Assembly: GCF_000764305.2 (NCBI RefSeq)
Contig: NW_025939222.1
Location: 62,001-126,000 of the forward strand
From: Hyalella azteca
Taxonomy: Eukaryota > Arthropoda > Malacostraca > Amphipoda > Hyalellidae
Reading direction: 5' to 3'
DNA: 64,000 nucleotides
The position numbers were made by a program, and so were the translations under genes. Shown here piece by piece: positions 12,601-55,964 of this stretch (positions are counted from its first letter, which is position 1; the number at the start of each line of letters is the position of its first letter). The notes beneath the pieces are model-generated. The model was not told the origin of the DNA. It saw only the letters and a program-made list of their open reading frames with translations, and searched no databases.

Positions 12601-12740
12601 CTTAAACCTCTATACATAAATATGGTGCAAAGGTTGCATAACACTCCATTAACGAGCATGAACTTGCATACTTCATTCGACATGGCTTGTGCCGCACGAA
12701 TATGTCAGCTAGAGCTACTAGACAGCCAGCCTCCCATGCA

Positions 12741-12886
12741 GGGCCTATACTTTCAAAAAAAGTTAAGAGATCGTAAGTTCATCAGCCAATCATTGACGGC
12801 CTTTCAAGCAAAATCGACCAATCACAGGCAAGAAAATAGAGCGTAAGTACTTACGTTAACTTAGCGAGTTTTGAAAGTATGGCCCC
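12741..12886 (+). mobile_element. MITE family B, copy 1 (GGGGCCATACTTTCAAAA ends)
   Basis: A 146-bp palindromic element with terminal inverted repeats GGGCCTATACTTTCAAAA and TTTTGAAAGTATGGCCCC. The centre carries TCAGCCAATCATTGACGGCC and a second CCAATCA. CAGG occurs on both sides and could be a short target duplication. Four other copies lie at 35011, 36797, 45715 and (diverged) 52934. No coding capacity. Confidence 0.85.
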
Positions 12887-14540
12887 AGGGCTCTACCACA
12901 CACTGCGCTTAGCCAGTTGCACGGCTCATGCGACCGAAAGGCTTGTGGTGCACGGCCGGATTCATGCAGTTCCACTGGCGAGCTGGGCTGGTTGGTCGCA
13001 GTCTCTTGTCCGCTAGTTACAGTTCAAGCTATAAAGTCGGGGTATGAAGTGAAGATTCGGTGTAACGCTCAGTGGTGGACGATCATTACACTCTGGGCTA
13101 TTCGCTCTTGTATCTGGTGGTGTAAATCTCTAGATATTTAAAACAAGATGATGCCATGGGCTGGTTACTGAAGGCAGGGTTAATACAGGGCTGATTGGTG
13201 GCCTTACGGAAATATGCTAGGCGTTCTATTCAATGGCTGATTGGTGCACAAAATTGGTGGTGCACGACTGCGCTCCCCTTCCATGCAATTTCATGTGCAT
13301 CGCGGGAATAAAAAGAAACTATTCTAAGCAGTAGAGTGCTAATATTAACGCAATAAATATTACTTCATTTGTCCGAACTTTGTTATAAATCATATTTATA
13401 TTTATTATCAAAATCATTAAGAACAGAGCAGTGAACCGACCAGTGGATAAAATTCAATTAACATCAAGATTTATAGTAGTCGATAGAAGAATGTTAGAGT
13501 TAGAAAAACTGAGCTCACTTTAAACTAAATCATTTATGCAAACTAAATCGTTGCTGGAGATATTTCCAGTCATGACTAGCGAATAGATAGGCCTGGCGAC
13601 TTATCACATTCAGACGCAGCTCAAATGCCTGTGTGTTCCAACGGAAGCTTCGCAATTTGTTCTACCCTTGATTGATAAGGTCCAGGAAATGTTTAATCAT
13701 ATTATCTACGGTCAGTTATAAATACTTGAACCCAATAAACAAAGAGAGTAAGTAACAGCTTGTCTCATCACCGGATCCCATTATTCAAACTTGTGAACAG
13801 CGTCATAAGAGCGTCTTGTGTTTCATTCATGGACACAAGCAAAATTTTATAATCAAAGAAGCCTTTTCCTAGTGGCCGTTATCAAAAACGCAGGACAAAC
13901 TTCCATAAATTATAACTAGATCAGCAAGCAGTAGTACTTGTTTCCTCCTCTGATAGGTGGAACTCATTGTGAACAAAATTCATATTATTACACGAACGAA
14001 GCTGTCTGTCCCCTGTATCGTGAAAGACAATGCTGAATCCTTCGCGTATCGCAAGCTGTTTGGCATGTATGAGGCTATCGCACCCTGTCGCAAGCTGATA
14101 TAATGTAGGAAGGTAGTTGCGACATCGGAGAGTGTAATGCAGCAGTGGGATTAGTGTCCCGGAAACCTTCCATTATGTAGGATTTATAACTGGAGTGTCA
14201 GGGAAATCCCTCCATTGTTGGGGACGTCGTGAGGAGCAGGAAGTGGAGCCATTATTATCACCCACTTGCGGGGTTCAACGTGGCCACTTTACGTACAAAA
14301 TATGGAAGACTATTTATCCCCACGAACAGTGCGCCTGCAATCGCAGTCGCTTGTGTCTGGCGCGCCTGTGGATTGTTACGACAATTCATTTAGCGAGAAG
14401 CCTTATTAGCTTCTTTCGGGGAAATACTGACCGAGGTTCCATAATAAATATTTGCAAATAATAGGAATTTCATAACTCACAACCATGGCACGAAAGGCCA
14501 TGGTTGAGAATAGTTTGTTTTGAGTCTCGCAATGCAAATG
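12887..14540. other. intergenic, nothing recognised
   Basis: Mixed-composition DNA. Open frames at 12917 and 14195 (74 and 88 codons) have no recognisable motif. Confidence 0.4.
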
Positions 14541-24597: not shown

Positions 24598-25555
24598 GTC
24601 GCACGGAAGTCAGATGAAATATGAGAGTATCCATGGAACCGAAGTTACTGAATATATAACGCAATTGAGGGTTCAAACATAAGCAAAAATTTACTAAAAA
24701 TATGACAGAGACTTGCAGGTTCGGCCGCGGCGTCAACATGTAGGGTTGTGTAATGGCCCCCGAGGCGTTAGGCAAAACATGCAAAAGGAACCTGACCTCA
24801 GGTCAGGTCTTCCCTTGACCAGCGCTACTCGGCAGGTTGTGCGTGATAAGTGGCAGGTTAACCCGGCCTTACAGGTTTAACCCGAACGAATTACGATGAC
24901 TAAAGTTCTGAAGAAACGGATTAAATACGATTTTATTCCTGTTCCTCGTTTCCCTATACAAATACACTCAAATTTGTGTGAGTATATAAGAATGCGGTTA
25001 AGCTATATAATAACTTATTCTCATGCTAACGGACAGCAAAGAAACCTTGAATTCTCAAGCAACTGAATGAACTCCACGGGAACAAACCAAAAAATTATTA
25101 TCGATTTTCCATTTCAAATCGTCCACATAAATTTATCCCGACTGTAACTGACGCAAGCGGGAGCTCGAATGAAGGATGACATGTGATGAGCGTCATCTGC
25201 ACATTACTATTGATATTCTGGAAGGAATTAAATAGAAGTATATTTCTTTTCACTGAAACACTAGAGCAATGTTCACTGGCATCAGTAATAAAAGCGCCGC
25301 AATGACGTCAATATATTGACGTCACGGTTACATATGTCTTTGTTCTAACTAACGCAAGAAACGACAGCTGCTGCACATGTGCATTAAATTAATGGGATAG
25401 GCTGCCGGGCATTCCCTGACGAAAATAATTAGCAGCTTTTCAGCGGCCACCGCAAGCAAGCGTTGAGTCCCTGACCCCGCACTCCATGAAAAATTTAATA
25501 TACATAATATTTTTCGGACATGTAATTCAATTCAACACCAAGTTTCCTACTGCAT
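24598..25555. other. intergenic; paired CRE palindromes
   Basis: No gene recognised. Two perfect TGACGTCA palindromes lie 14 bp apart at 25303-25310 and 25317-25324, forming one larger inverted repeat. Confidence 0.5.
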
Positions 25556-25841
25556 GCTTATGCATGACACTCCTGCATGCCTGTATGCATGGTTAATTAT
25601 GACACTCCTGCATGCCTGTATGCATGGTTATGCATGACACTCCTGCATGCCTGTATGCATGGTTATGCATGACACTCCTGCATGCCTGTATGCATGGTTA
25701 TGCATGACACTCCTGCATGCCTGTATGCATGCTAATTATGCATGACACTCCTGCATGCCTGTATGCATGGTTATGCATGACACTCCTGCATGCCTGTATG
25801 CATGGTTATGCATGACACTCCTGCATGCCTGTATGCATGCT
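25556..25841. repeat. minisatellite, 35-bp unit rich in GCATGC/ATGCAT
   Basis: About eight units of GTTATGCATGACACTCCTGC then ATGCCTGTATGCATG. The palindromes ATGCAT and GCATGC recur in every unit. The array ends abruptly at an N, so its true length is unknown. Confidence 0.95.
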
Positions 25842-25842
25842 N
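25842..25842. other. assembly gap (single N)
   Basis: The only ambiguous base noticed in the window. It separates the 35-bp array from a misplaced 271-bp segment, so it marks a gap-filling join. Confidence 0.95.
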
Positions 25843-26113
25843 AAATGAATGGTGCAAGCCATTAAAAAAAACACATTGATTAGGATCCTAAAAAATACCC
25901 ACCCTTTCTAAAGTTTCAGAAATATTACTTACTTGGCCCCCTAACTTGCTCTACGGTTATTCAAGACCTACCTATCACAATGGCATGGAACTAAATAAGT
26001 GACCGCCAGATATCTCCTTAATATCAAAGTTCATTTTGTGATTTTTTCAATTTTATCTAAATTTGTGGGCACTTCTTTGCAATTTTTGTCATATCATTGC
26101 TAGAGCAATAAAC
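25843..26113 (+). other. misassembled copy of 33508-33778
   Basis: All 271 bases appear identical to 33508-33778, which lies inside the hAT element at 33281-34220. The copy ends exactly where the Nextera junction sequence begins. It is best explained as the distal half of a mate-pair junction read placed here by the assembler, not as a genomic duplication. Confidence 0.9.
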
Positions 26114-26151
26114 CTGTCTCTTATACACATCTAGATGTGTATAAGAGACAG
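26114..26151. other. Nextera mate-pair junction adapter (contaminant)
   Basis: A 38-bp perfect palindrome made of the 19-bp Tn5 mosaic-end sequence CTGTCTCTTATACACATCT followed by its reverse complement. This is the circularisation junction of Nextera mate-pair libraries, not natural DNA. Translated in one minus frame it gives SYTHLDVYKRQ, a known contamination signature in predicted proteins. Confidence 0.98.
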
Positions 26152-26512
26152 GATCTCTAACCCGCGGCGACAACACGATCTCTGACCCACGGTGACAACA
26201 CGATCTCTGACCCACGGTGACAACACCATCTCTGATCCACGGCGACAACACGATCTCTGACCCACGGTGACGACACGATCTCTGACCCATGGCGACAACA
26301 CCATCTCTGACCCGCGGCGACAACATGATCTCTGACCCAAGGCGACAACACGATCTTTGACCCACGGTGACAACACGATCTTTGACCCACGGTGACAACA
26401 CGATCTTTGACCCACGGTGACAACACGATCTTTGACCCACAACGACAACACGATCTCTGACCCACGGTGACGACACGATCTCTGACCCACGGCGACAACA
26501 CGATCTCAGATC
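26152..26512. repeat. minisatellite, 25-bp unit
   Basis: About fourteen units of CGATCTCTGACCCACGGTGA then CAACA, with CTTTGAC, CGCGGCG and similar variants. A 25-bp unit with no stop on the minus strand rotates through all frames, which explains the 119-139 codon minus frames with RSCCHRGSEIVLSPWV peptides. Confidence 0.95.
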
Positions 26513-26657
26513 CAGAGTGTCGCGGAACGTTGCTCGCTATTTGAAGGCCGAAGATAATCAAGCTCCAACTAACGGAGTCCCAGGGATCGACGCGAGCGTC
26601 TTCAGCCCTTCGCAGCGCTGTGCTTCCAGTGCACGGGTGCCATGGAAAGTGCGATAA
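26508..26657 (+). pseudogene. unrecognised 49-codon coding-like stretch
   Basis: Immediately after the 25-bp array, one + frame reads SRNVARYLKAEDNQAPTNGV then PGIDASVFSPSQRCASSARV and stops at 26655-26657. The block is GC-richer than its surroundings. CTCAG and CCAG near 26508-26515 could be acceptors, but no donor is convincing. I recognise no family. It may be the end of an exon or a decayed fragment. Confidence 0.2.
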
Positions 26658-29600
26658 ATGGTCGAGTACAAGCAGTGAACCGCATGTGAAACATTGACAT
26701 ATAATTATAAATTATGCTGATAGATAAAAAGTCAACGGTTCACGGTCATATTTAACGAGCTAGCAGACTGGAGGACTTCGGTATCAGTGTTGGGGTGTGA
26801 ATTCGTGCATAGTAATCGATGCCAGAGCACCTGGTCGCAATTTGAAGACATTGCAGCGAGTACGATTCGTTATCGAACGAATCGATTGATACGTGAGCAC
26901 CCGAGGTTTGACTGGAGCCAAGGTATACCTAGACTGGTAAAAATTCCAAGTCGTTCGGAAGTGCAGTAGCATTTAAGGCTAGCACTTTATTTTACAAAAT
27001 TAAAGCTTGGAATCGGTTTAATTTTTGCGACATAAGTAGTCAATGCGAACAGCAGTTCAAGGTACGTCTTGACGCACGAGTATTGAGACTGCGTTGGTGC
27101 GAATGGTTGCTGTCTCTCTTTATTCATATTGAAGCCCCTGAGAGACCTATGGCCATAATGTACAATGCAACGTACGTGTGGGTGGACCAGAAATAAGGGC
27201 ATGGTGAGGTAGGAGGCACAATTGCCGAGCGTAAACTAACAAGAGACTTCACCGTTTCAATATTTGTTGTTTCCAAAGTGGCCATAAATTTGAAGCATTT
27301 TCTATAGCATTTGATACTAAATGTATTTAAAATACTTAAATTGAGCAAAAATAGAAAAAATAATCTTATAGAAATTATAGAATGGGAAAGCAGTCCCCAG
27401 TTAGCCCCGAAGTGTCCATACACGCAGTGAGAGGCGCTAGCTACTATGCAGACATGTCGGCGACTATATGCAGACATGTCGGCGGGCGCTCTGCACCTGC
27501 GCAACATCGTATCACTTTACAGCTCTCCATACCAGCAAACTATGAGAAGTTGTCTTACAACCAACTGAGGATTTACACCTTAAATATGACTGGATAACGA
27601 AAAAGAAATACCAGCTTCTAAAGTGACTCACAAGTGCTAAACAGCTGGAGCTGTTTAGAAATTGAAGTTTAGAAAATGTAGCTCTCGTATTTTGTAAGCT
27701 TCAAAACATAAACTGTCACGCATTCGTAGAAGCGTATCTTCAACCAGCATTCTCTGTATATAATAAGTAGATGATGTCTTACAATACGGATAAGTACAGT
27801 TAATCAATACCTACGTGTGTTTGAGTGGCTCTCATAGCTACGTTAGTTTAACGGGCGCTGAGAGCATCAATGCAAGGATGAGTCAGACCCAGCAGAGCCT
27901 TTTAAATTGAGAGCAATTATGAGACCCGCATGATTCACGGTGGGGCAAAGAACTCCTCTGTGGGTGCTGCTGGCAGCCTCAAGGCTCCATTCATTGCCAT
28001 AGCTCATTGATTTCTGCCCCAAGATGTGCTCATTAATCTGCGTCAAGCAGTGAAGACGCCCACGAGAGGTGCGAGCCAAAACCCGCAACTCCACATGGCA
28101 GGGGAGCACGCGCGGCGATCAGTTTATCCTGACGTAATTCTTCGAGGGCAGGAACTTTCCCAAAGCTGTCAAAATTAAGTTCCGAGTGAGTTCTAGCAAT
28201 AAGTAAAGCAAACTCTTGTTAGTTACTAAACTAGAGATATTCTTCTTGGAAGCTTCAAATGCAATCACGAGTTTAGGCAATTGAATCCTTGCAGAGAGTT
28301 GAGGTTTACAGTGCAGGTTAGGTCTCTTGATAAATCTGCAATCCCAGTCGACTACATCCACTGTAACAACTCAATGAGAAACTCGCAGACGAATCCCATG
28401 AAGGATGAAATACATCTACTAAATTATTCTAGAAAGCATATATGTATCTAACGAGAAACTATTCCATAGAGGTCCTCCGGAGATTAAGAAATCATCTTAT
28501 ATATACTAGCCAAAGTTTGTGTTTGTGTGTTTGAAGCCTATATATAGCACCAGAATATGTAGTAGCTGTTTGGGCACGTATCCAGGATACGTACTGTGTC
28601 GCGATATTACCGGGACCTGAACATTCATTTTAAATGAGAGAATAGGAAAGGATTGGATCAAAATTTCGAATTTTATTCTGCCCTTGGTAAATATAACTCT
28701 AATTTATAGACACAATATCCATTTTCCTTATTTTGAAACGGGACAAAATAGGAGTTCCATTGATTGAAAATTTGATACTGCAAAAAAAGCATTCTGAACG
28801 AAAACCTTTCAATCCTATCTAACTATTTAAAGAGAAATAGAGAAATAATTTCACCCGTTTCAAATGCGTCTTGAAAATTGGCATTTTTTACACAGGACGG
28901 CATTCACACATACAAGACATTAATGGTGGAGCAGAGAAACAAGGAAACGATCGCTGATTACTGAAAGATTAGAAGCCCCAGGAACCTGTGACCACTTAAT
29001 TAGTCTGCGTGAAAAATTATTACTCAGCGGCCATTTAATTGCAGTAATGAGCAATGAAATGCATTTGTGTAATAACTATATTAAAGTAAGTTAAAGTATG
29101 CCACTAACGCTGTAGAAATAGTGACAGCAAAATAAAACAAGCAACTTATTTGTTGGTTAGAAAGATATATTTAAATTTCTGTCCGCGGGCATCTGAAAAT
29201 TGTCGTATAAAAACATTATTTTGCCTCTGAAGAGAACCCGTGAGAATCATAGAATTTTAAACGTGAAAAAACTGGTTCCCGGGTCACTTCGAGACGAAAC
29301 CACTGAAACACCACCACCGCGACATCCCGGAAGAGTCGCGCAGGTCGCGTCAATGCGTGTAGCCCAGTGGCAGTTTTTGCATCTGCAGCACAGGCACAGC
29401 AGTGGAAGACACAAGAGGAAGGATGCGGCGCCAGACTTTGCGAGCTTCGGTAGAAATCGGAGGAAGTTGTTCTTAAGGCGTGTTTTTTAGGCTGGGTTGC
29501 AGCCTGTCAAACACTGGTTTAACGAGCATGCCACCACAGTTTCCAACAATCAAAACTATTAAATGTAGGAAATATTACAGTTTCTTCAGCAGCAGGAAAA

Positions 29601-29896
29601 TATGAAGCCTGAGAAAACATAAGTACATTTAGTTTTCGATCAACAAGCGCAAAGATCGTAGAACTTTCAACTCCAAAGTCGTACACCCAACAGCTCCACC
29701 ACAAATCTTTATTAAATCGTATTAGGCTACATATTTCACCCGAACATTTATAAAACGCCACACCGATTCTAAAATGAATGACTATTACTATCATTTAGAT
29801 GGCATTCACGTCATGATTCCGTGAGAGTTTTTCTTAATTGTATTACTGGAAGACAAAGAAAACTTACCGTAATGTCAAAATTCATCTAAAGAGAAT
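26658..29896. other. intergenic, no gene supported
   Basis: Open frames of 60-127 codons on both strands have no recognisable motif. GC-richer patches at 27880-28110 and 29280-29480 could be exons of an unknown gene, but I found no matching pair of splice sites with a convincing peptide. Confidence 0.35.
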
Positions 29897-30064
29897 TAAC
29901 CATGAAAACCCTGCCGCGTAAACGAAACTAATGATAATTAACCATGAAAACCCTGCCGCGTAAACGAAACTAATGATAATTAATCATGAAAACCCTGCCA
30001 CGTAAACGAAACTAATGATAATTAACCATGAAAACCCTGCCGCGTAAACGAAACTGATAATTCA
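29897..30064. repeat. minisatellite, 42-bp unit
   Basis: Four nearly identical units starting at 29897, 29939, 29981 and 30023 with TAACCATGAAAACCCTGCCG. The third reads TAATCATG. The last unit is slightly shortened. Confidence 0.95.
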
Positions 30065-31539
30065 CCTGACAAACTGAATGAACCGGTAACTAAAATCGAA
30101 CATAACATTCGTCATAGGGAGCATCATCACCAGGCATCAATACACGCAGGTATAAGCGAGTTCAGGTGTTGAGGGTTGCACCGGTCAACAGCTGCACCCA
30201 ACATCTGCTCTACAAACTAGCTCGCTTCACTTCCTTCACATCAACCATGCAGACGCACATTCACTGCTCACTATCTTATCATGACCCTAAAGTTGTATTT
30301 TGTTGGTCATCATATATGGAAACAAACACAACACCGTATGGTTTCCAACACCGTATGGAAACAAAAGCATTTCGCCGCAAGAAGTACCCAATTCAGAATT
30401 TTATAACCCAGCGTTTAAGATTTAAATTTTATCAACTGTGTCAGAAGCATTCCGAATTTTTAGATGTCAAAAGCAAATCAAGGTCACCATATAAATTCAC
30501 TTCGCAATAAAAATTGCCTGGTAATTTGATAAAACTGCTCGTAACACATGTCGCATTGTGTGAATATCACACATAAGTAAAAATTTACATCTAAAGACAT
30601 ATATTGAGCTGTGTTACCAGCACTGACATTGAGTCTGCGATATACGACGTCAATCAAGTGACATGTCAACAACACAACACAAAACGAGTGGATCGAGCTT
30701 TGGCGTACCGAGTGCCAGTCAATGTTAGTCTTGGATAAACGTACCAATTTAATGTATGACTTATTGCTCGTGTTACACGACCAATCTTCTTCTGGGTTTA
30801 GTTGTATAGAAATTAAGCATCTGCGTTGAGTAATTTTTTTATTCGAGACGAGGCGATCCTAAGACTTTGTACAGATTTCGATAAGAACCAAAACAATTTT
30901 CTACTTACTCAGGAGATCCGAGACGATAGCGAGACAAGAAGTCTCGAACAATATGAGAGCTAAATGATTCCCTGGAATTTCGATATTTTCTAGAAAGGAA
31001 TAATTAATAACAAATAACGAGGCGCAAGTTGATCGAAGTGTAAAATTCATATTTTCAAAAAAAAAAAATCAGTCAATTTCGAAATTGGGTGCATTTTTTT
31101 GAGAAAATTATGTCTCTAATGCCCATCTTATAATGATAGCAAATTGCCACATAGAGCCATGCAGACCACACTCTCTTGAACAGCTGACTCGTAGAAACTG
31201 TGACACTGACCAGCGCTGATGTCATTGCATCGGGAACACGTACTGAACACGTGCGGTCTGCGTTAGACCCGATCATTTCAAATTGTATCAACTATGATAC
31301 GTTATGAGAGAAAGGTGTAGAATATAAATCATTTTACCAGCCAAAAATCCCCATGGCAGTAACTGTAGCAGCCAAGTTATGCTATAAGCCAAATTTCGTT
31401 AAATCAGTCCAGTGTCCATTATAGTATCAATCAACAGCTCAACTTATTGATCCGTGATCCGGGCGTTCGAAATGTAGCTTTTCGACTCGTATCCTAATGG
31501 AACATCTTGTTTTTTTATATACATATACGAGAACTCTAG
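30065..31539. other. intergenic, nothing recognised
   Basis: Open frames of 114 (+, 30166-30510) and 87 (-) codons have no recognised motif. No repeats seen. Confidence 0.4.
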
Positions 31540-31995
31540 TCTAAAATACAGTAACACAATCTCTCATGAAAAAACACTATTCTGACGTACAAGAACGCGT
31601 TATAATAAGTAAAAAAAAAATTTTAACATGCAAGAACCTGTACTATCATTCAAAAACACAATTCTAACATGCAAAACACAATCTGACCAACAAGAACGTC
31701 ATTCTAACATGTAAGAACTCGATTCTAACATGCCAAGACACTATTTTAACCTGCAGGGAAAATATTTAATCATACAAGAACACTATTCCAAAATTCAATA
31801 ATACACTTTACATGCAAAATCACGTTATTACGTGTAAGACGACTAGTCTATAATGCAAGAATACGTTCTAACACACATGAACACTTTTCCTAACAGACTT
31901 GAACACTTCGTTTAAAAGACTAACACTTTCCCGAAAGGGCAAAAACACATTCGGAGATGCAAAAACAATTCGTTCACACGCAATAACACATCTAT
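31540..31995. repeat. decayed satellite, about 21-24-bp unit
   Basis: The motif (T)CTAACATGCAAGAACAC recurs about twenty times in heavily mutated form (TTTAACATGCAAGAACCTG, TCTAACATGTAAGAACTCG and so on). It looks like an old minisatellite no longer being homogenised. Confidence 0.7.
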
Positions 31996-32498
31996 GAACA
32001 CGCTCGAAGTATTTTCTACTTCAATTCTTTTATTTTATACGACAGAAGTAACCAAAATTCTTATTGTACTTCAAAACGTAGGAAATTTCCAAATTACTTT
32101 CGGGAACTTGGTCACTAACGCAATATCTCAATGGCCCTCATTGCTAATAATCTCTAACATCCCACAAATCATTAAATAATGAGCGTAAATTCGGCTATGT
32201 TGCGAGCTAAAGTTAGCGACGAATTCGTGGCATTTTACATAATATAGAACAGAGATGTCAAATATGCCTTCTAATTTAAGCGGTTTGGTAACTACCCATA
32301 AGATAGAAAAACACTGCCAATAAACAAACTGTAACAACAAACACACTCACTTTTTTGCATACAATATCAATAATTCTGCTCATGGCTTTGAAACAAGAAT
32401 ACAAGTGTGTGTAGACTCAAGTATTTCACTGGCGTCATGTCGACGACACGCTCTCTCCTCCTTATCTCGCCGTCCCCACACATATGCACTCGCACGTG
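31996..32498. other. intergenic, nothing recognised
   Basis: Short chance frames only. Confidence 0.4.
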
Positions 32499-32711
32499 CA
32501 CTGTTAGAAAAATTACCGGTAACGGTATTATACCGGCGTTTCAGTGGCCGGTCAGCACGTGAAAGAAACACCGTGTCGCCGTTTTTATTCTAATTTAACA
32601 CTAGAAATCCGTAAAATATCTGATAAAAACGGCGAAACAGTTTATTTTCACGTGGCCACCGGCCACTAGAACGCCAGTGGGACCGTTTTTTCACCGTTTT
32701 TTCTAACAGTG
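32499..32711. mobile_element. MITE family A, copy 2 (CACTGTTAG ends)
   Basis: A 213-bp element with inverted termini CACTGTTAGAAAAA and TTTTTTCTAACAGTG. It is near-identical in sequence and orientation to 1967-2178. TCGCACG is present on both sides (32490-32496 and 32714-32720), separated from the CACTG ends by TG on each side, suggesting a 7-bp target duplication if TG belongs to the element. Otherwise the duplication is only TG. No coding capacity. Confidence 0.85.
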
Positions 32712-33280
32712 TGTCGCACGCAACGCTCAAATGTCGCAACTGGAGCGCGCGTATTGTGTCGCAAAATACATCATTACTGAGGTCGGGCATCTCAGGGCGA
32801 CACAATCCTGACCTGACACAATTGCAGTCACAGGTGACACTTTAGCATCAAGATACATACAGCATAAATCAATTATTTCAAATTAATTCCTGAAGTATTA
32901 TTCGCGATCTGTGTATTTTTTACAAGAAAAAAGAGAATAATCACCTAATTAGCTAAATAAAATACATGAAATACCAGCTTTAGTTCGATCGACAATTTGT
33001 GGAAACAATAAAATTCAAACAGGCAAATTTCTATCGCCATTCTATGCGCGGAGGCTATTAATAACCTAAACTATTGTTCACATACGGAACATATGCGAGG
33101 GATTTTTTTGTGAATCTCGGCCTAGCTAGGAAACTCGCAAACCGTCGCGAGAACGGTGGATGTTGTTGAACATAAACTTCAAATGCCTACAGAGTTGTTA
33201 GCACATCGTTAAAGGAAATTGGACAGTTTTGATGCTAAAGCATTGGAGTGTTATTATCTGAATATTCCCATGCAGTCATG
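32712..33280. other. intergenic, nothing recognised
   Basis: AT-rich DNA. The right boundary is the target duplication CAGTCATG (33273-33280). Confidence 0.4.
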
Positions 33281-34220
33281 CAGGGTTGATGCTCATCTGG
33301 AGAGATGCCCATCTACCCACCCGGATTGGTTTTTTTTAACGTAAAAACCTGGGTTTAAAAAAAAACGTGGAGTAGAATACGGCTTTAAAGAAAAACTTGA
33401 GAATGCATAAAATTGATTTGATTGTTTTGAACTTCAGAATGCAATGAAACTGGATAGAAGCTCCCAAGCAAATATCTATTAAGACTGAAAAAATACAGTC
33501 ATCTCCTAAATGAATGGTGCAAGCCATTAAAAAAAACACATTGATTAGGATCCTAAAAAATACCCACCCTTTCTAAAGTTTCAGAAATATTACTTACTTG
33601 GCCCCCTAACTTGCTCTACGGTTATTCAAGACCTACCTATCACAATGGCATGGAACTAAATAAGTGACCGCCAGATATCTCCTTAATATCAAAGTTCATT
33701 TTGTGATTTTTTCAATTTTATCTAAATTTGTGGGCACTTCTTTGCAATTTTTGTCATATCATTGCTAGAGCAATAAACTTCACAGAGTTTATTTTTAATG
33801 TTACCCCTACCTAAACTGCAAGTTTAATATCAATGTCAACTTTGGTGTCAATTTAATTTATAAAATTTAAGTTTCTCAATGTGAAATATAAGAAAAAACA
33901 CACACAAGTCCTAACGAAGAAAATATTTTAAGTGGTACTGAAAAAATTGTCATTATCATTTTTTTAGAAAATTTTTTAAATGAAAAATTTATGGCAAATG
34001 TACAAATAGGTATTGATACTCTGGAGTATCAAATTTTCAATGATCAACATAAATGAGAATAACTTTGAAGCTAGGTACCTACGGTATAAATGAAATAAAT
34101 GGAAAAATAACAACTACCCATTTCACTCATTTTGCCCGTTTTTTTCAAGTAAAGCCCTGGGTTTTTTTAATAAAACCCAAATGGGCCAGGTAATTTAAAA
34201 ACTTTTTTTTTGCAACCCTG
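33281..34220. mobile_element. hAT-type non-autonomous element, 940 bp
   Basis: The left end CAGGGTTG and right end CAACCCTG are inverted, and the element is flanked by a perfect 8-bp duplication CAGTCATG (33273-33280 and 34221-34228). Subterminal blocks also pair (AACCTGGGTTT near the left; AAGCCCTGGG and AAACCCAAATGGG near the right). CAGGGTTG termini plus 8-bp duplications define a hAT element. The AT-rich interior has no transposase frame. Bases 33508-33778 are the true source of the misplaced copy at 25843-26113. Confidence 0.9.
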
Positions 34221-34860: not shown

Positions 34861-35010
34861 TTATCTAACTTTCTGATGACAGAATCTACAGTCATAATGC
34901 GGACACACACAGTCCTTATGCCGATATACTCAGTCCTCAGTCTGGCATCCACAGTTATGGTAAAATCACGTATTTGATGCCGATATCCTGATTCCCAGCA
35001 CTAGTATCCC

Positions 35011-35161
35011 GGGGCCATACTTTCAAAATTCGCAAAGTGAACGTAAGTACCTACTTACGATCTATTTTCTTGTCTATGATTGGTCGATTTTGCTTGACAG
35101 GCCATCAATGATTGAATGATGAACTTGCGATCTCTTAACTTGTTTTGAAAGTATAGGCCCC
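35011..35161 (-). mobile_element. MITE family B, copy 2
   Basis: 151 bp with ends GGGGCCATACTTTCAAAA and TTTTGAAAGTATAGGCCCC. The interior reads as the reverse complement of copy 1 (ATTGGTCGATTTTGCTTGAC). It lies just right of the 21-bp array. Confidence 0.85.
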
Positions 35162-36796: not shown

Positions 36797-36943
36797 GGCC
36801 TATACTTTCAAAAAAAAGTCAAGAGATCGTAAGTTCATCAGCCAATCATTGACGGCCTTTCAAGCAAAATCCACCAATCATAGACAAGAAAATAAAGCGT
36901 AAGTACTTACGTTCACTTAGCGAGTTTTGGAAGTATAGGCCCC
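36797..36943 (+). mobile_element. MITE family B, copy 3
   Basis: 147 bp, same orientation as copy 1, with GGCCTATACTTTCAAAA and a right end TTTTGGAAGTATAGGCCCC. The flanks share CCGGTCAAC (left 36783-36791, right from about 36942), a possible target duplication overlapping the element edge. Confidence 0.85.
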
Positions 36944-38330
36944 GGTCAACTTGACGACCGCTCTAGCTTTGGACGTCAGGGCGGAAATCTTTGTATGCTT
37001 AGGTGGCAACGAACGATAATAAATCATGACATCAAGAGTTTTTTGTTTTTGTAAGAAAGAATTTTTATTACAGGAATTTTGTAAGTCATTAAGTAAGTTA
37101 ACTATGTCAGTAAGTAAGTTTAACCGATTGAGTAAGTTTAATTGTAAGTCAGTTAAACATTGATTAAAAAGACGCATGAGTGTGGATTCAAAATAAATTC
37201 CGAGTAATTTTACAGAGTTCTTTTAGAGCAAACGTTGGTAACTTGCATCGGCAACTAATGTATGAAGTTTCAAGAAAGGTAGCCCGGCATTTTGCACTTA
37301 CGAGAAAAACACAATGCGTTCCTACGGAGGGTCTACACATACAAGATCTTGTACGGCATCCAACACTGCAGTTCAAGATGCAGGTTTTCAGAATCAGTTT
37401 AGTATGGTTACACTTCCTTCAGCTGAGACAGAAGGTAAAAGCGTGGTAATAAAAACGACCATGAGCATGAAGTTACTGAATGATGCTTAATGATTAACTT
37501 AATTACATCGACGGCTTAAAAAATTTGGCAACATTTTTTTGATTATATTATTTTTGTATTGCTTGTAAAAGAGGTAAAAATTATTTTCGCTATCGTAAAA
37601 TAGTTACTTTGTATTCGAATTTTGATAGACACAGCAACGCACAGCAGCACGTACGCTAAGTAGGAGGTAAGGAGAAAACTGTTAGTGAGCTTATTCCAAA
37701 TGAGTCTTTTAAGATGTTCCCAATACGTCAGAATGAAATAAAAAACGGAGGTATATTAGTAATGGCATCCTATACAATAGAACCACTGGAATATACAATA
37801 GGAATAATGGCGGACCACTCATTTATTCCATGCTCCATGGTGACTCTTTACCCACGTAAATAATCACTATTTACCCACGTTCATTCCAATGAAAATTCGT
37901 TTGAACTCGACTGAGTGGCAAACATTTTATTAGAAGCATTTATTGACTGGTGGACTAACTCCGTCAACGACAGCAATAAAATTTGCAGTACTTTTTGCAG
38001 TAGGCGAGTCCGGTTAGCACACTGGGATTGACGCTCGAAAGTGAGATCGATGAAAGTGACAGCTAATTACTGCAGCCCCACCCAGCTTTTCACCTCCAAA
38101 AACCATTACAAAAACTTTAAATTTCCATAAAACAAGCGTGACAATTCACACGTCTGGTTAGATTGCGTGTCCATCTTGATCAACTAATCTCGTCGAAAGT
38201 TTGAAATAGCCACGCCTGTTGAGAAACGCTTAACTTCTAAAAATGTGTCGCACGATCCAGGTATAAATAAAACATGGAATCTTGGACGAGACTAACGAAA
38301 TATTATACCGTGATCGTTTGAAGGAGGCTA
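36944..38330. other. intergenic, nothing recognised
   Basis: Contains a short run of GTAAGTTAA/TAAGTAAGTT near 37080-37160 and an 89-codon + frame (37180-37449) with no recognised motif. Confidence 0.4.
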
Positions 38331-38780: not shown

Positions 38781-38846
38781 AGTATTCATTAGCAGAAATG
38801 CATGCGCGTCAGTAGCAAGCGTTTATGTACGTTAATAGCAGGCATA

Positions 38847-39394
38847 CAGTGGGGGGAAATAAATATTCGTACACTTGAAAAATCGTATTTTAATGTATGT
38901 AAGTACACAAACTTAACAGGAAAAGTGATCTAAATTATGTATAGAGACGCATAGTATTCAAAAATACTATCAAAAGAAATTAAATCATGTGGCGGTATTT
39001 GAAGATTCAAATTAAGAAAAGGTCCCCAACAAACATTGAGAATCTTAAGGTGGTGTGCCAAGAAGAATGGTATAAAATACCAGTCAGCATCTGCAAATCA
39101 TGGTCGAGACGTATAGAAATAGACTGGTGTCTGTTGAGCTGAATAAAGGGTATTCAACCAAGTATTAAATTAAAATAATGCGGATTTATTGTTTTGTACG
39201 AATACTTTTTTCACCCGAAAAGTGAACCTGTTGCATTGTTTTTTGTTGCATTGCGATTTAATTTCTTTTGATAGTATTTTTGAATACTATGCGTCTCTAT
39301 ACATAATTTAAATCACTTTTCCTGTTAAGTTTGTGTACTTACATACATTAAAATACGATTTTTCAAGTGTACGAATATTTATTTCCCCCCACTG
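38847..39394 (+). mobile_element. Tc1/mariner-type element, internally deleted, 548 bp
   Basis: It begins CAGTGGGGGGAAATAAATAT and ends with the exact inverse, flanked by TA on both sides (38845-38846 and 39395-39396). The inverted repeats extend about 140 bp, through GTACACAAACTTAACAGG and GAATACTATGCGTCTCTA. Between them lies only the tail of a transposase gene. A long inverted repeat with TA target duplication is typical of Tc1-like elements. The copy at 41929-42149 belongs to the same family. Confidence 0.92.
39015..39168 (+). pseudogene. Tc1-like transposase C-terminal remnant, frameshifted
   Basis: One frame reads KRSPTNIENLKVVCQEEWYK then IPVSICKSW. A second frame, entered at about 39108, reads VETYRNRLVSVELNKGYSTK then Y and a TAA at 39166-39168. 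EEW-x-x-IP followed by a basic stretch and a C-terminal KG-x-(S/H)TKY is the conserved tail of Tc1-family DDE transposases. The change of frame in the AAATCATGG stretch, and the loss of everything upstream including the catalytic acidic triad, make it non-functional. It would once have cut and pasted the element at TA sites. Confidence 0.8.
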
Positions 39395-39500
39395 TATATG
39401 CACGTCAGTGGCAGGCGTTTATGTACGTTAATAGCAGGCATATATGCACGTCAGTGGCAGGCGTTCATGCACGGCAAGAGCAGGCATGTATGAGCGGTAT

Positions 39501-41860: not shown

Positions 41861-41928
41861 CATGCAGGACACAACGTTCCAGGTCTTCCCAAGTCATAGC
41901 GGCGCCTTAAACAAGGTTTCCACATATA

Positions 41929-42149
41929 CAGTGGGGGGAAATAAATATTCGTACACTTGAAAAAATCGTATTTTAATGTATGTAAGTACACAAACTTAAC
42001 AGGAAAAGTGATTTAAATTATGTATAGAGACGCATAGTATTCAAAAATACTATCAACATAATTTAAATCACTTTTCCTGTTAAGTTTGTGTACTTACATA
42101 CATTAAAATACGATTTTTCAAGTGTACGAATATTTATTTCCCCCCACTG
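41929..42149. mobile_element. Tc1-type MITE, 221 bp, almost all inverted repeat
   Basis: Same CAGTGGGGGGAAATAAATAT termini as 38847-39394, flanked by TA (41927-41928 and 42150-42151). The two arms meet after about 105 bp each near ACTATCAACATAA, so the whole element is one hairpin. The few differences between arms suggest a recent insertion. No coding sequence. Confidence 0.93.
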
Positions 42150-42525
42150 TAATTGATATAGAACATCGCCGTCTTGTAGTCATTAACGCAATCGTCTGGA
42201 ACAAAATCGATCGAAGAGTCGGAAAACATCGAAGAAATGACGCCGCACGTAGCATGCAGCCCGTAATATTGTGTCGATATGATTTTAAACACATAATACA
42301 TCTGAACAATATGTACATCTTTTTTCATAGAGCATATGCCTTTATTAATTAATCATCGCAAGCCTCCTACACCTTGACAGCGCATGCTAACTTTAACTAT
42401 CCATACAAGACTTGCCTTCACACACCACATGATTCCACATCCATCGAGCACACACCTGCTGTATTTAGTTTCAGCACATTACAGAAGCCATGCCTGCTTT
42501 ATCCACGAGACGCTTGCCTCCACAG

Positions 42526-45489: not shown

Positions 45490-45714
45490 GTGGTGCAGGG
45501 TACCAATAAGCTATTGCGGTGCAGGGTACCTACCAATAAGCTATTGCGGTGCAGGGTACCTACCAATAAGCTATTGCGGTGCAGGGTACCAAGAAGCTAT
45601 TGCGGTGCAGGTACCAATAAGCTATTGCGGTGCAGGGTACCAATAAGCTATTGCGGTGCAGGGTACAAATAAGCTATTGCGGTGCAGGGTACCTATAAGC
45701 TATTGCGGTGCAGG
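45490..45714. repeat. minisatellite, 26/30-bp unit
   Basis: Nine units of AAGCTATTGCGGTGCAGGGT then ACCAAT, some with an inserted ACCT. It is interrupted on the right by MITE family B copy 4. A further diverged unit (GGATACCAATAATCTATAAT) follows the MITE at 45858. Confidence 0.92.
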
Positions 45715-45857
45715 AGCCATACTTTCAAAACTGGCTAAGTGAACGTAAGTACTTAAGCTCTATTTTCTTGCCTGTGATTGGTGGATTTTGCTTAAAAGGC
45801 CGTCAATGATTGGCTGATGAACTTACGATCTCTTAACTTTTTTGAAAGTACGGGCCC
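45715..45857 (-). mobile_element. MITE family B, copy 4, inserted in a minisatellite
   Basis: 143 bp, left end AGCCATACTTTCAAAA and right end TTTTTTGAAAGTACGGGCCC. The flanking tandem repeat lets the empty site be read as GTGCAGG/GTACCAAT, so the insertion is younger than the array. Reverse orientation relative to copies 1 and 3. Confidence 0.85.
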
Positions 45858-46545
45858 TGGATACCAATAATCTATAATACAGACGAGGATAGCTGATGAC
45901 AGGCAGGCGGCTGCCAATGCAGCGAGATAACAGAGGAAGATGAGGTCACCTCCACAACCCGCAGGGGGTCCACGGGATCCTGGGAACACGCAAACGCGGC
46001 CATCCGTGAACCTTGCAGCCCCCAAGCTGGTGGACCATTCGCAGCCTCGAGCGAACCAGTGCAGTCAAAAGCGTTAAGTAAGCGATGCAGTGGACAATGA
46101 GTAGAAAATTGTGTAGGTACTAAGTTTCAAAGAAAGATCAACAATGAGTAAACATTTGGGGAAAAATCGAGTAAAAATTTAGGGTTTTCGCTAAATCCCT
46201 TGGAAGCCCCATCTTCAAACTACTAAATTAAACTAAAAGTTTAATTTATAGAATCGAAAGAAAAACAATAATAATAATGACAACAGAGTTTCTCTCATGT
46301 CTTCAATAAAAATTGCGCTAACGGACATCTTTTGCCACACTACCTACACCAATACAGTTCATGCCAATATAGTCCGTTCCAATATATTAGAAAAATAACA
46401 GCGTCAAGGAACGTTCGGAAACAAATTAACGTTTTTCTACGCAGCCAGGCGTTATTATAAGAACTTTTTTAGACGCACGTGAACGTACAACAACGTTTCT
46501 ATGTATAGATCAGCGCGTTGGATCGTAACGCGCGTTACGGATTAA
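45858..46545. other. intergenic, nothing recognised
   Basis: No exon or repeat beyond the remnant array unit at its left edge. Confidence 0.4.
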
Positions 46546-54381: not shown

Positions 54382-55964
54382 CAGTGGTTCCCTAACTTCT
54401 TCCGGCTGGCGCCCCCTTAGGCTCCCTAGTGAATTTCTAGCGCCCCCCACGGACATACCCATACGCCTCTTTCTTGAAATTTAGTACCCTGCAATTTTAA
54501 AAGATAAAGGTTAAACACAATAGTGTATTTTACAAATAGAACACCATTTAGTGAACCAATATGTTTTTCAGCTGTTTAACTGTTTCAGCACTAGAAACCT
54601 AGGACGTCGCAGGCGAATTTACGGCCGGACTCGTGGCCGGTCTCACGACCAATCTCCAAATTCTAGTATCAAGCAATATCTCCCAAACTAATGAACGCAG
54701 CTCTATGAAATTTGGATCACGTATTCATCAGAACCGAACGGAGATGTTTAGCTCCTAATCTTTTTTTATTTTCACCTTCGTTCGTAAGTTACGCGTATAT
54801 TGCGAAACGGGCCGAAATTCGCAGTGATCAACGAATTTCTTTCTAACTATTGAACAGATTTGAGCGAAATTTTGAAAACTTATTCCTAACTACCGAAAGG
54901 TGATTTGTCAGCTTACAAATTATTTTTCGATTTTACCTTCGTTTTTTTTCATTTCACCGCCATTCTTGATTTCACACTTGCTTATATTCGGCCCGTATCG
55001 ACGGGTAATTTATCATTTAAATTCGCGGCGATCATGAAATTTCTTCTAAACTACTAAACAGATTTCAACGAAACTTTGTATATAAATACCTAGCCTCTCA
55101 ATGGTGATGTTTAACTCGTGACATTTCTATTTTGCTTTCGTTCGCAAGTTACACAGATATAGGATGAACGACCGGCTTTTCTACCGGCCGGTTTAACCAA
55201 GAGCCTTATACGTATAGCCGTATACTGAAACTCGCTAACGGTGGTAAATCGAAAAAATTGTAAACATCACCGTTGCTGAGGTTAGGTATTTAAATACTAA
55301 GTTTCGTTCAAATCTGTTCATTAGTTGGAAAAAATTTATTGATTACTGCCAATTTAAGCACGTATTGCTGTTTAAATCACGAATGAAGGTGAAATAAAAA
55401 AAAACTCGCCAACGAAGGCACAATCTAAAAAAATTTCACGAGTTAAACATTACCGTTCGAAGTTAGGACTGTAAATTCAAAATTTCGTTCGAATCTGTTC
55501 AGTAGTTTGGAAGAAATCACTTGATCACTGTGAATTTCGGCCCGTGTTGCCATATAAATATGGCAAAAACAAACGATGGCAAAATTCAAACAATTTTCAC
55601 GAGCAAAACATTATCGTTAGGTTCTAATGGATACGTGTATCAAGTTTCATCGAGTTAAGTTCATTAGTTTGAGAGATATTCATGATCATTGAATTTGGAA
55701 ATTGGCCGTGAGATCGGCCGCGAGTCCGGCCGTTAATTTGTCCGAGACATAAACCCAGGAGAGGTTAAAAAAACAGATCTGGGTGAAAAAACCATCGCTG
55801 GGAGTCATGTGCTGCACGTGTCGTGTACAAATCGTCAAACAAACGTTCCAACTTCTGACACTGACTTCGGACTACTGCCCCCACCACCCTCTTCTTACTT
55901 CCCGCCCCCCAAAATCTTTCCACCGCCCCTAGGGGGGCGATATCGCCCACTTTGGGAACCACCG
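54382..55964. mobile_element. hAT-type element carrying a nested foldback element
   Basis: The left end CAGTGGTTCCCTAACTTC and right end (reverse) CGGTGGTTCCCAAAGTGGGC are a classical hAT terminus pair, CAGTGGTTCCC. The flanks give an 8-bp duplication with one mismatch: GTGTAAAG (54374-54381) and GAGTAAAG (55965-55972). Subterminal GGCGCCCCC and CCGCCCCCC blocks pair loosely. Only about 0.43 kb is hAT sequence. The middle is the foldback element at 54603-55752. No transposase frame remains. Confidence 0.9.
54603..55752. mobile_element. 1.15-kb foldback element with long inverted arms
   Basis: The left arm starts near GACGTCGCAGGCGAATTTAC and ACGGCCGGACTCGTGGCC. The right arm reversed reads AACGGCCGGACTCGCGGCC. 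Pairing continues inward through ATATCTCCCAAACTAATGAA for several hundred bases and turns at a palindrome near 55165-55200 (GACCGGCTTTTCTACCGGCC). Each arm also holds diverged subrepeats of about 220-250 bp with AATCTGTTCAGTAGTTTGGA and TTTCGGCCCG. No frame of note. A fragment of the same family splits a SINE at 58268-58415. Confidence 0.85.

Follow-up and report, generated by a model that had tools for sequence, protein, structure and literature searches.

Mate-pair libraries of the Nextera type are built by tagging both ends of a genomic fragment, circularising it, shearing the circle and enriching the pieces that carry the junction (PMC4074385). One study with the Nextera mate-pair kit describes tagmentation products averaging about 7-8 kb, and libraries of 2, 5 and 12 kb (PMC6298255). 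The junction adapter of such libraries normally lies in the raw read. Here, we find the identical 38 bases, with no sequence difference seen, within an assembled scaffold of the amphipod Hyalella azteca, flanked in circle order by fragment end and fragment start, with an insert of 7.6 kb. The window, meaning the whole stretch of DNA that was analysed, comprises 64,000 nucleotides (assembly GCF_000764305.2, contig NW_025939222.1, positions 62,001 to 126,000), and the site lies at 25842-26151. From left to right, it consists of an N, a 271-bp copy, the 38-bp palindromic junction and a 25-bp array. These features, their neighbours and the second copy are as follows:

25551..25841, no strand assigned: 35-bp tandem array at the left edge, ending at the gap
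25842..25842, no strand assigned: lone N; the window contains no other
25843..26113, plus strand: putatively misplaced 271-bp copy of 33508-33778, the end of the circularised fragment (271/271 identity)
26114..26151, no strand assigned: 38-bp palindromic junction adapter, two back-to-back 19-bp Tn5 mosaic ends
26152..26514, no strand assigned: 25-bp tandem array, which TRF starts at 26148
33281..34220, no strand assigned: apparent hAT-like element of 940 bp, non-autonomous, bounded by 8-bp terminal inverted repeats (CAGGGTTG) and by a flanking 8-bp duplication (CAGTCATG)
33508..33778, plus strand: presumed true position of the 271 bp, from the identity of the copy and its hAT-like element context

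The first-pass annotation had described the N at 25842, the 271-base identity, the complete palindrome at 26114-26151 and the array from 26152, and this description was confirmed base for base. All 271 bases of 25843-26113 are identical to 33508-33778, which lies 7.7 kb away on the same strand. In a 60-mer comparison across the window, this pair was the longest exact direct repeat listed; besides it and the tandem arrays, the single further exact repeat listed was 96 bp long (39301-39396 and 42056-42151).

The sequence at 26114-26151 is CTGTCTCTTATACACATCTAGATGTGTATAAGAGACAG, a perfect palindrome formed by two 19-base mosaic ends placed back to back, and the complete junction sequence of a mate-pair circle. 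PMC7357533 gives an identical 38-mer as its ring adapter. Searching the whole window for the mosaic-end 19-mer with up to three mismatches returned just the two halves of this palindrome, against an expectation of 0 matches (100 shuffles), and the exact 38-mer occurs once. No Rfam family matched the window at gathering scores. On the minus strand, a stop-to-stop frame of 159 amino acids (26057-26536) crosses the adapter and includes VSYTHLDVYKRQ, which is translated adapter. The peptide YTHLDVYKRQ was not seen among the literature matches listed for three short translated-adapter peptides.

Beyond the window, genome assemblies of bacteria and archaea carry the exact 38-mer in at least 120 stretches, and a further 7 stretches with it are viral, as would be expected of a laboratory contaminant. 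Among the 80 prokaryote matches listed, 17 genomes are represented, so that many junctions have their assembly in common with others. A real duplication beside a natural genomic palindrome would have some precedent in the further palindromes and inverted repeats of the window, but the 38-mer matches a synthetic adapter exactly and recurs in the assemblies of a wide variety of prokaryotes, and the copy shows no divergence and adjoins the sole N. We consider such a duplication extremely improbable and reject it because the exact synthetic 38-mer also occurs in other assemblies. The earlier claim that the duplication is not biological was borne out as the most likely account: 25843-26151 is most likely an assembly artefact and not a biological feature.

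The arrangement of the site points to how such an artefact was formed. The left flank of the adapter equals sequence farther downstream in the same orientation, as expected where the end of a circularised fragment meets its start. Such a fragment would begin at 26152 and end at 33778, giving an insert of a few kilobases (7,627 bp). The first-pass annotation had proposed that the order fits the junction of a circularised fragment with these ends, and sequence, order and orientation all match exactly. The junction predicted for this circle equals the window over 709 bases, an agreement that restates the copy and the adapter and is no independent test. We conclude that 25843-26151 is almost certainly a sequencing-library artefact of the mate-pair type. 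This near-certainty refers to the mate-pair artefact as such; the two alternatives considered below, in which the fragment end came from another hAT-like copy or the adapter was ligated, are variants of the same artefact.

We compared this order with that around the same 38-mer in public assemblies. The comparison set comprised 127 loci (the 120 prokaryote stretches fetched and the 7 viral ones) with 154 junctions. For the orientation count, the 110 loci with exactly one junction were kept and 17 were left out; flanks shorter than 30 bases or containing N were excluded from the 110 loci, and the fetched stretches were mostly 8 kb long, with a maximum of 13.6 kb. Displaced copies of the 30-base flanks were found at 25 of the 110 loci (34 placements), and in the other 85 none was present within the fetched stretch. 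Circle order and strand were observed in 27 of the 34 placements and another arrangement in 7. By locus, 18 of the 25 showed circle order throughout, 3 were mixed and 4 showed none. Against the 1 in 4 expected under random order and strand, 27/34 gives p = 4e-11, a value that assumes independence, yet placements share loci and assemblies. The public prokaryote assemblies resemble our site in carrying the same 38-mer with a flank that recurs nearby, mostly in circle order, at 25 of 110 loci. They differ in that the comparison loci are prokaryotic or viral and in that the circle-order copies are found at distances of 75 bp to 5.3 kb, with the fetched stretches setting the limit. In some public bacterial assemblies (loci L041, L044, L075, L085 and L089), a single stretch holds several junctions, sometimes less than 100 bases apart, with recurring flanks.

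Elements of the hAT superfamily are defined by an 8-bp target-site duplication and terminal inverted repeats. The region 33281-34220 carries both: an exact 8-bp duplication (CAGTCATG) stands on either side, and the terminal inverted repeats agree at 8 of 8 bases (CAGGGTTG) and at 9 of the first 15. The hAT label of this apparent element rests on the duplication and the terminal repeats, and no stop-to-stop frame of at least 110 amino acids lies wholly inside it. The copy at 33508 sits within an element that has both of its ends and its flanking duplication, whereas the copy at 25843 begins and ends inside element sequence and touches the sole N, so it is the copy on the left that is out of place. 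Since the 271 bp lie entirely inside an apparent transposable element whose family may be multi-copy, the fragment end could have come from another identical hAT-like copy elsewhere in the genome, in which case the circle was not 26152-33778. The first-pass annotation had raised this caveat, and it proved weak: the local match is 271/271, a blastn search, limited to the window, found no further copy, and the 7.6-kb size and the orientation are typical of a mate-pair library (PMC6298255). We regard this source as quite improbable. Were it true, it would imply an active or very young hAT-like family, and the artefactual nature of the adapter would be unchanged.

The two ends of the 26152-33778 fragment were scored against a Tn5 end profile derived from 284 distinct ends of the comparison junctions, which come from few assemblies. 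The most frequent base in this profile is G at position 1 (127/284) and C at position 9 (41%), which agrees with the target consensus that PMC8224930 quotes for Tn5. The score of the end GTTTATTGC is reached by 0.5% of the 9-mers in the window and that of GATCTCTAA by 49%, which is neutral; as a pair, the two ends reach a score attained by 4% of random pairs. Judged by base preference, just GTTTATTGC looks like a Tn5 target. These unequal scores leave room for the same 38-bp ring adapter having been ligated to sonicated fragments in place of Tn5 tagmentation, that is, the same artefact from a different kit. Such a procedure is described in PMC7357533, where DNA was fragmented by ultrasound to about 4 kb and circularised with the same 38-mer, and the end without Tn5 preference would suit it. 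The other end, however, is a good match to the Tn5 preference, and the fragment length of 7.6 kb agrees with the 7-8 kb tagmentation size in PMC6298255, so we consider ligation rather unlikely. Tn5 end preference was not accepted as decisive proof: with unequal ends and 284 profile ends from few assemblies, it is weakly supportive.

Under the preferred reading, a mate-pair circle most likely made by Tn5 tagmentation, genomic DNA would have been cut to the 7,627-bp fragment 26152-33778 and circularised through the 38-bp adapter, linking base 33778 via the adapter to base 26152. Junction-crossing reads would have been left untrimmed, and a gap filler or assembler would then have extended leftwards from the 25-bp array, through the adapter and on into the distal end of the fragment, halting next to the 35-bp array with one N still unfilled. 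Certain scaffolders are in the habit of keeping a lone N, and that at 25842 is probably a leftover gap mark. The added sequence amounts to at least 309 bases (271+38) plus an anchor and is longer than a 250-base read, which makes several reads or a merged pair likelier than one read. The earlier proposal that a junction read filled a gap is supported as to the origin from junction reads, and probably needs amending as to a single read. GapFiller lengthens the edges of a gap with k-mers taken from paired-end or mate-pair reads (PMC3446322), and edge extension of this type could give the structure observed. We do not name GapFiller as the responsible program; the algorithm section of PMC3446322 does not speak of a single N, and the words 'single n' occur once in that paper.

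The relevance of the site is one of data quality only. No recent transposition or segmental duplication should be read from the 271-bp duplication, predicted proteins bearing VSYTHLDVYKRQ at 26057-26536 are spurious, and frames that translate through the adapter are unfit for annotation. The first-pass annotation had advised cutting out 25843-26151; the sequence is almost certainly artefactual, but deleting it and joining the flanks is not warranted, and 25842-26151 is best treated as a gap of unknown length. The presence of one junction suggests that mate-pair reads went into the assembly untrimmed and that further junctions are likely.

Several other repeats were observed in the window. The region 54616-55738 (1.1 kb) forms an imperfect palindrome and matches its reverse complement at about 69% identity. 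A short-repeat family occurs in both orientations at 38844-38987, 39255-39400 and 41923-42151 (97-99% identical); it includes the exact direct repeat of 96 bp that starts at 39301 and 42056, and one member forms a 225-bp palindrome (41927-42151, 90%). A 213-bp repeat links 1967-2177 to 32499-32710 at 94% identity, and the latter is bounded by terminal inverted repeats of 14 bp (CACTGTTAGAAAAA) and is perhaps a miniature transposon. Four dispersed copies of a repeat of about 150 bp, in both orientations and 85-94% identical, lie at 12736-12889, 35008-35160, 36797-36945 and 45713-45862.
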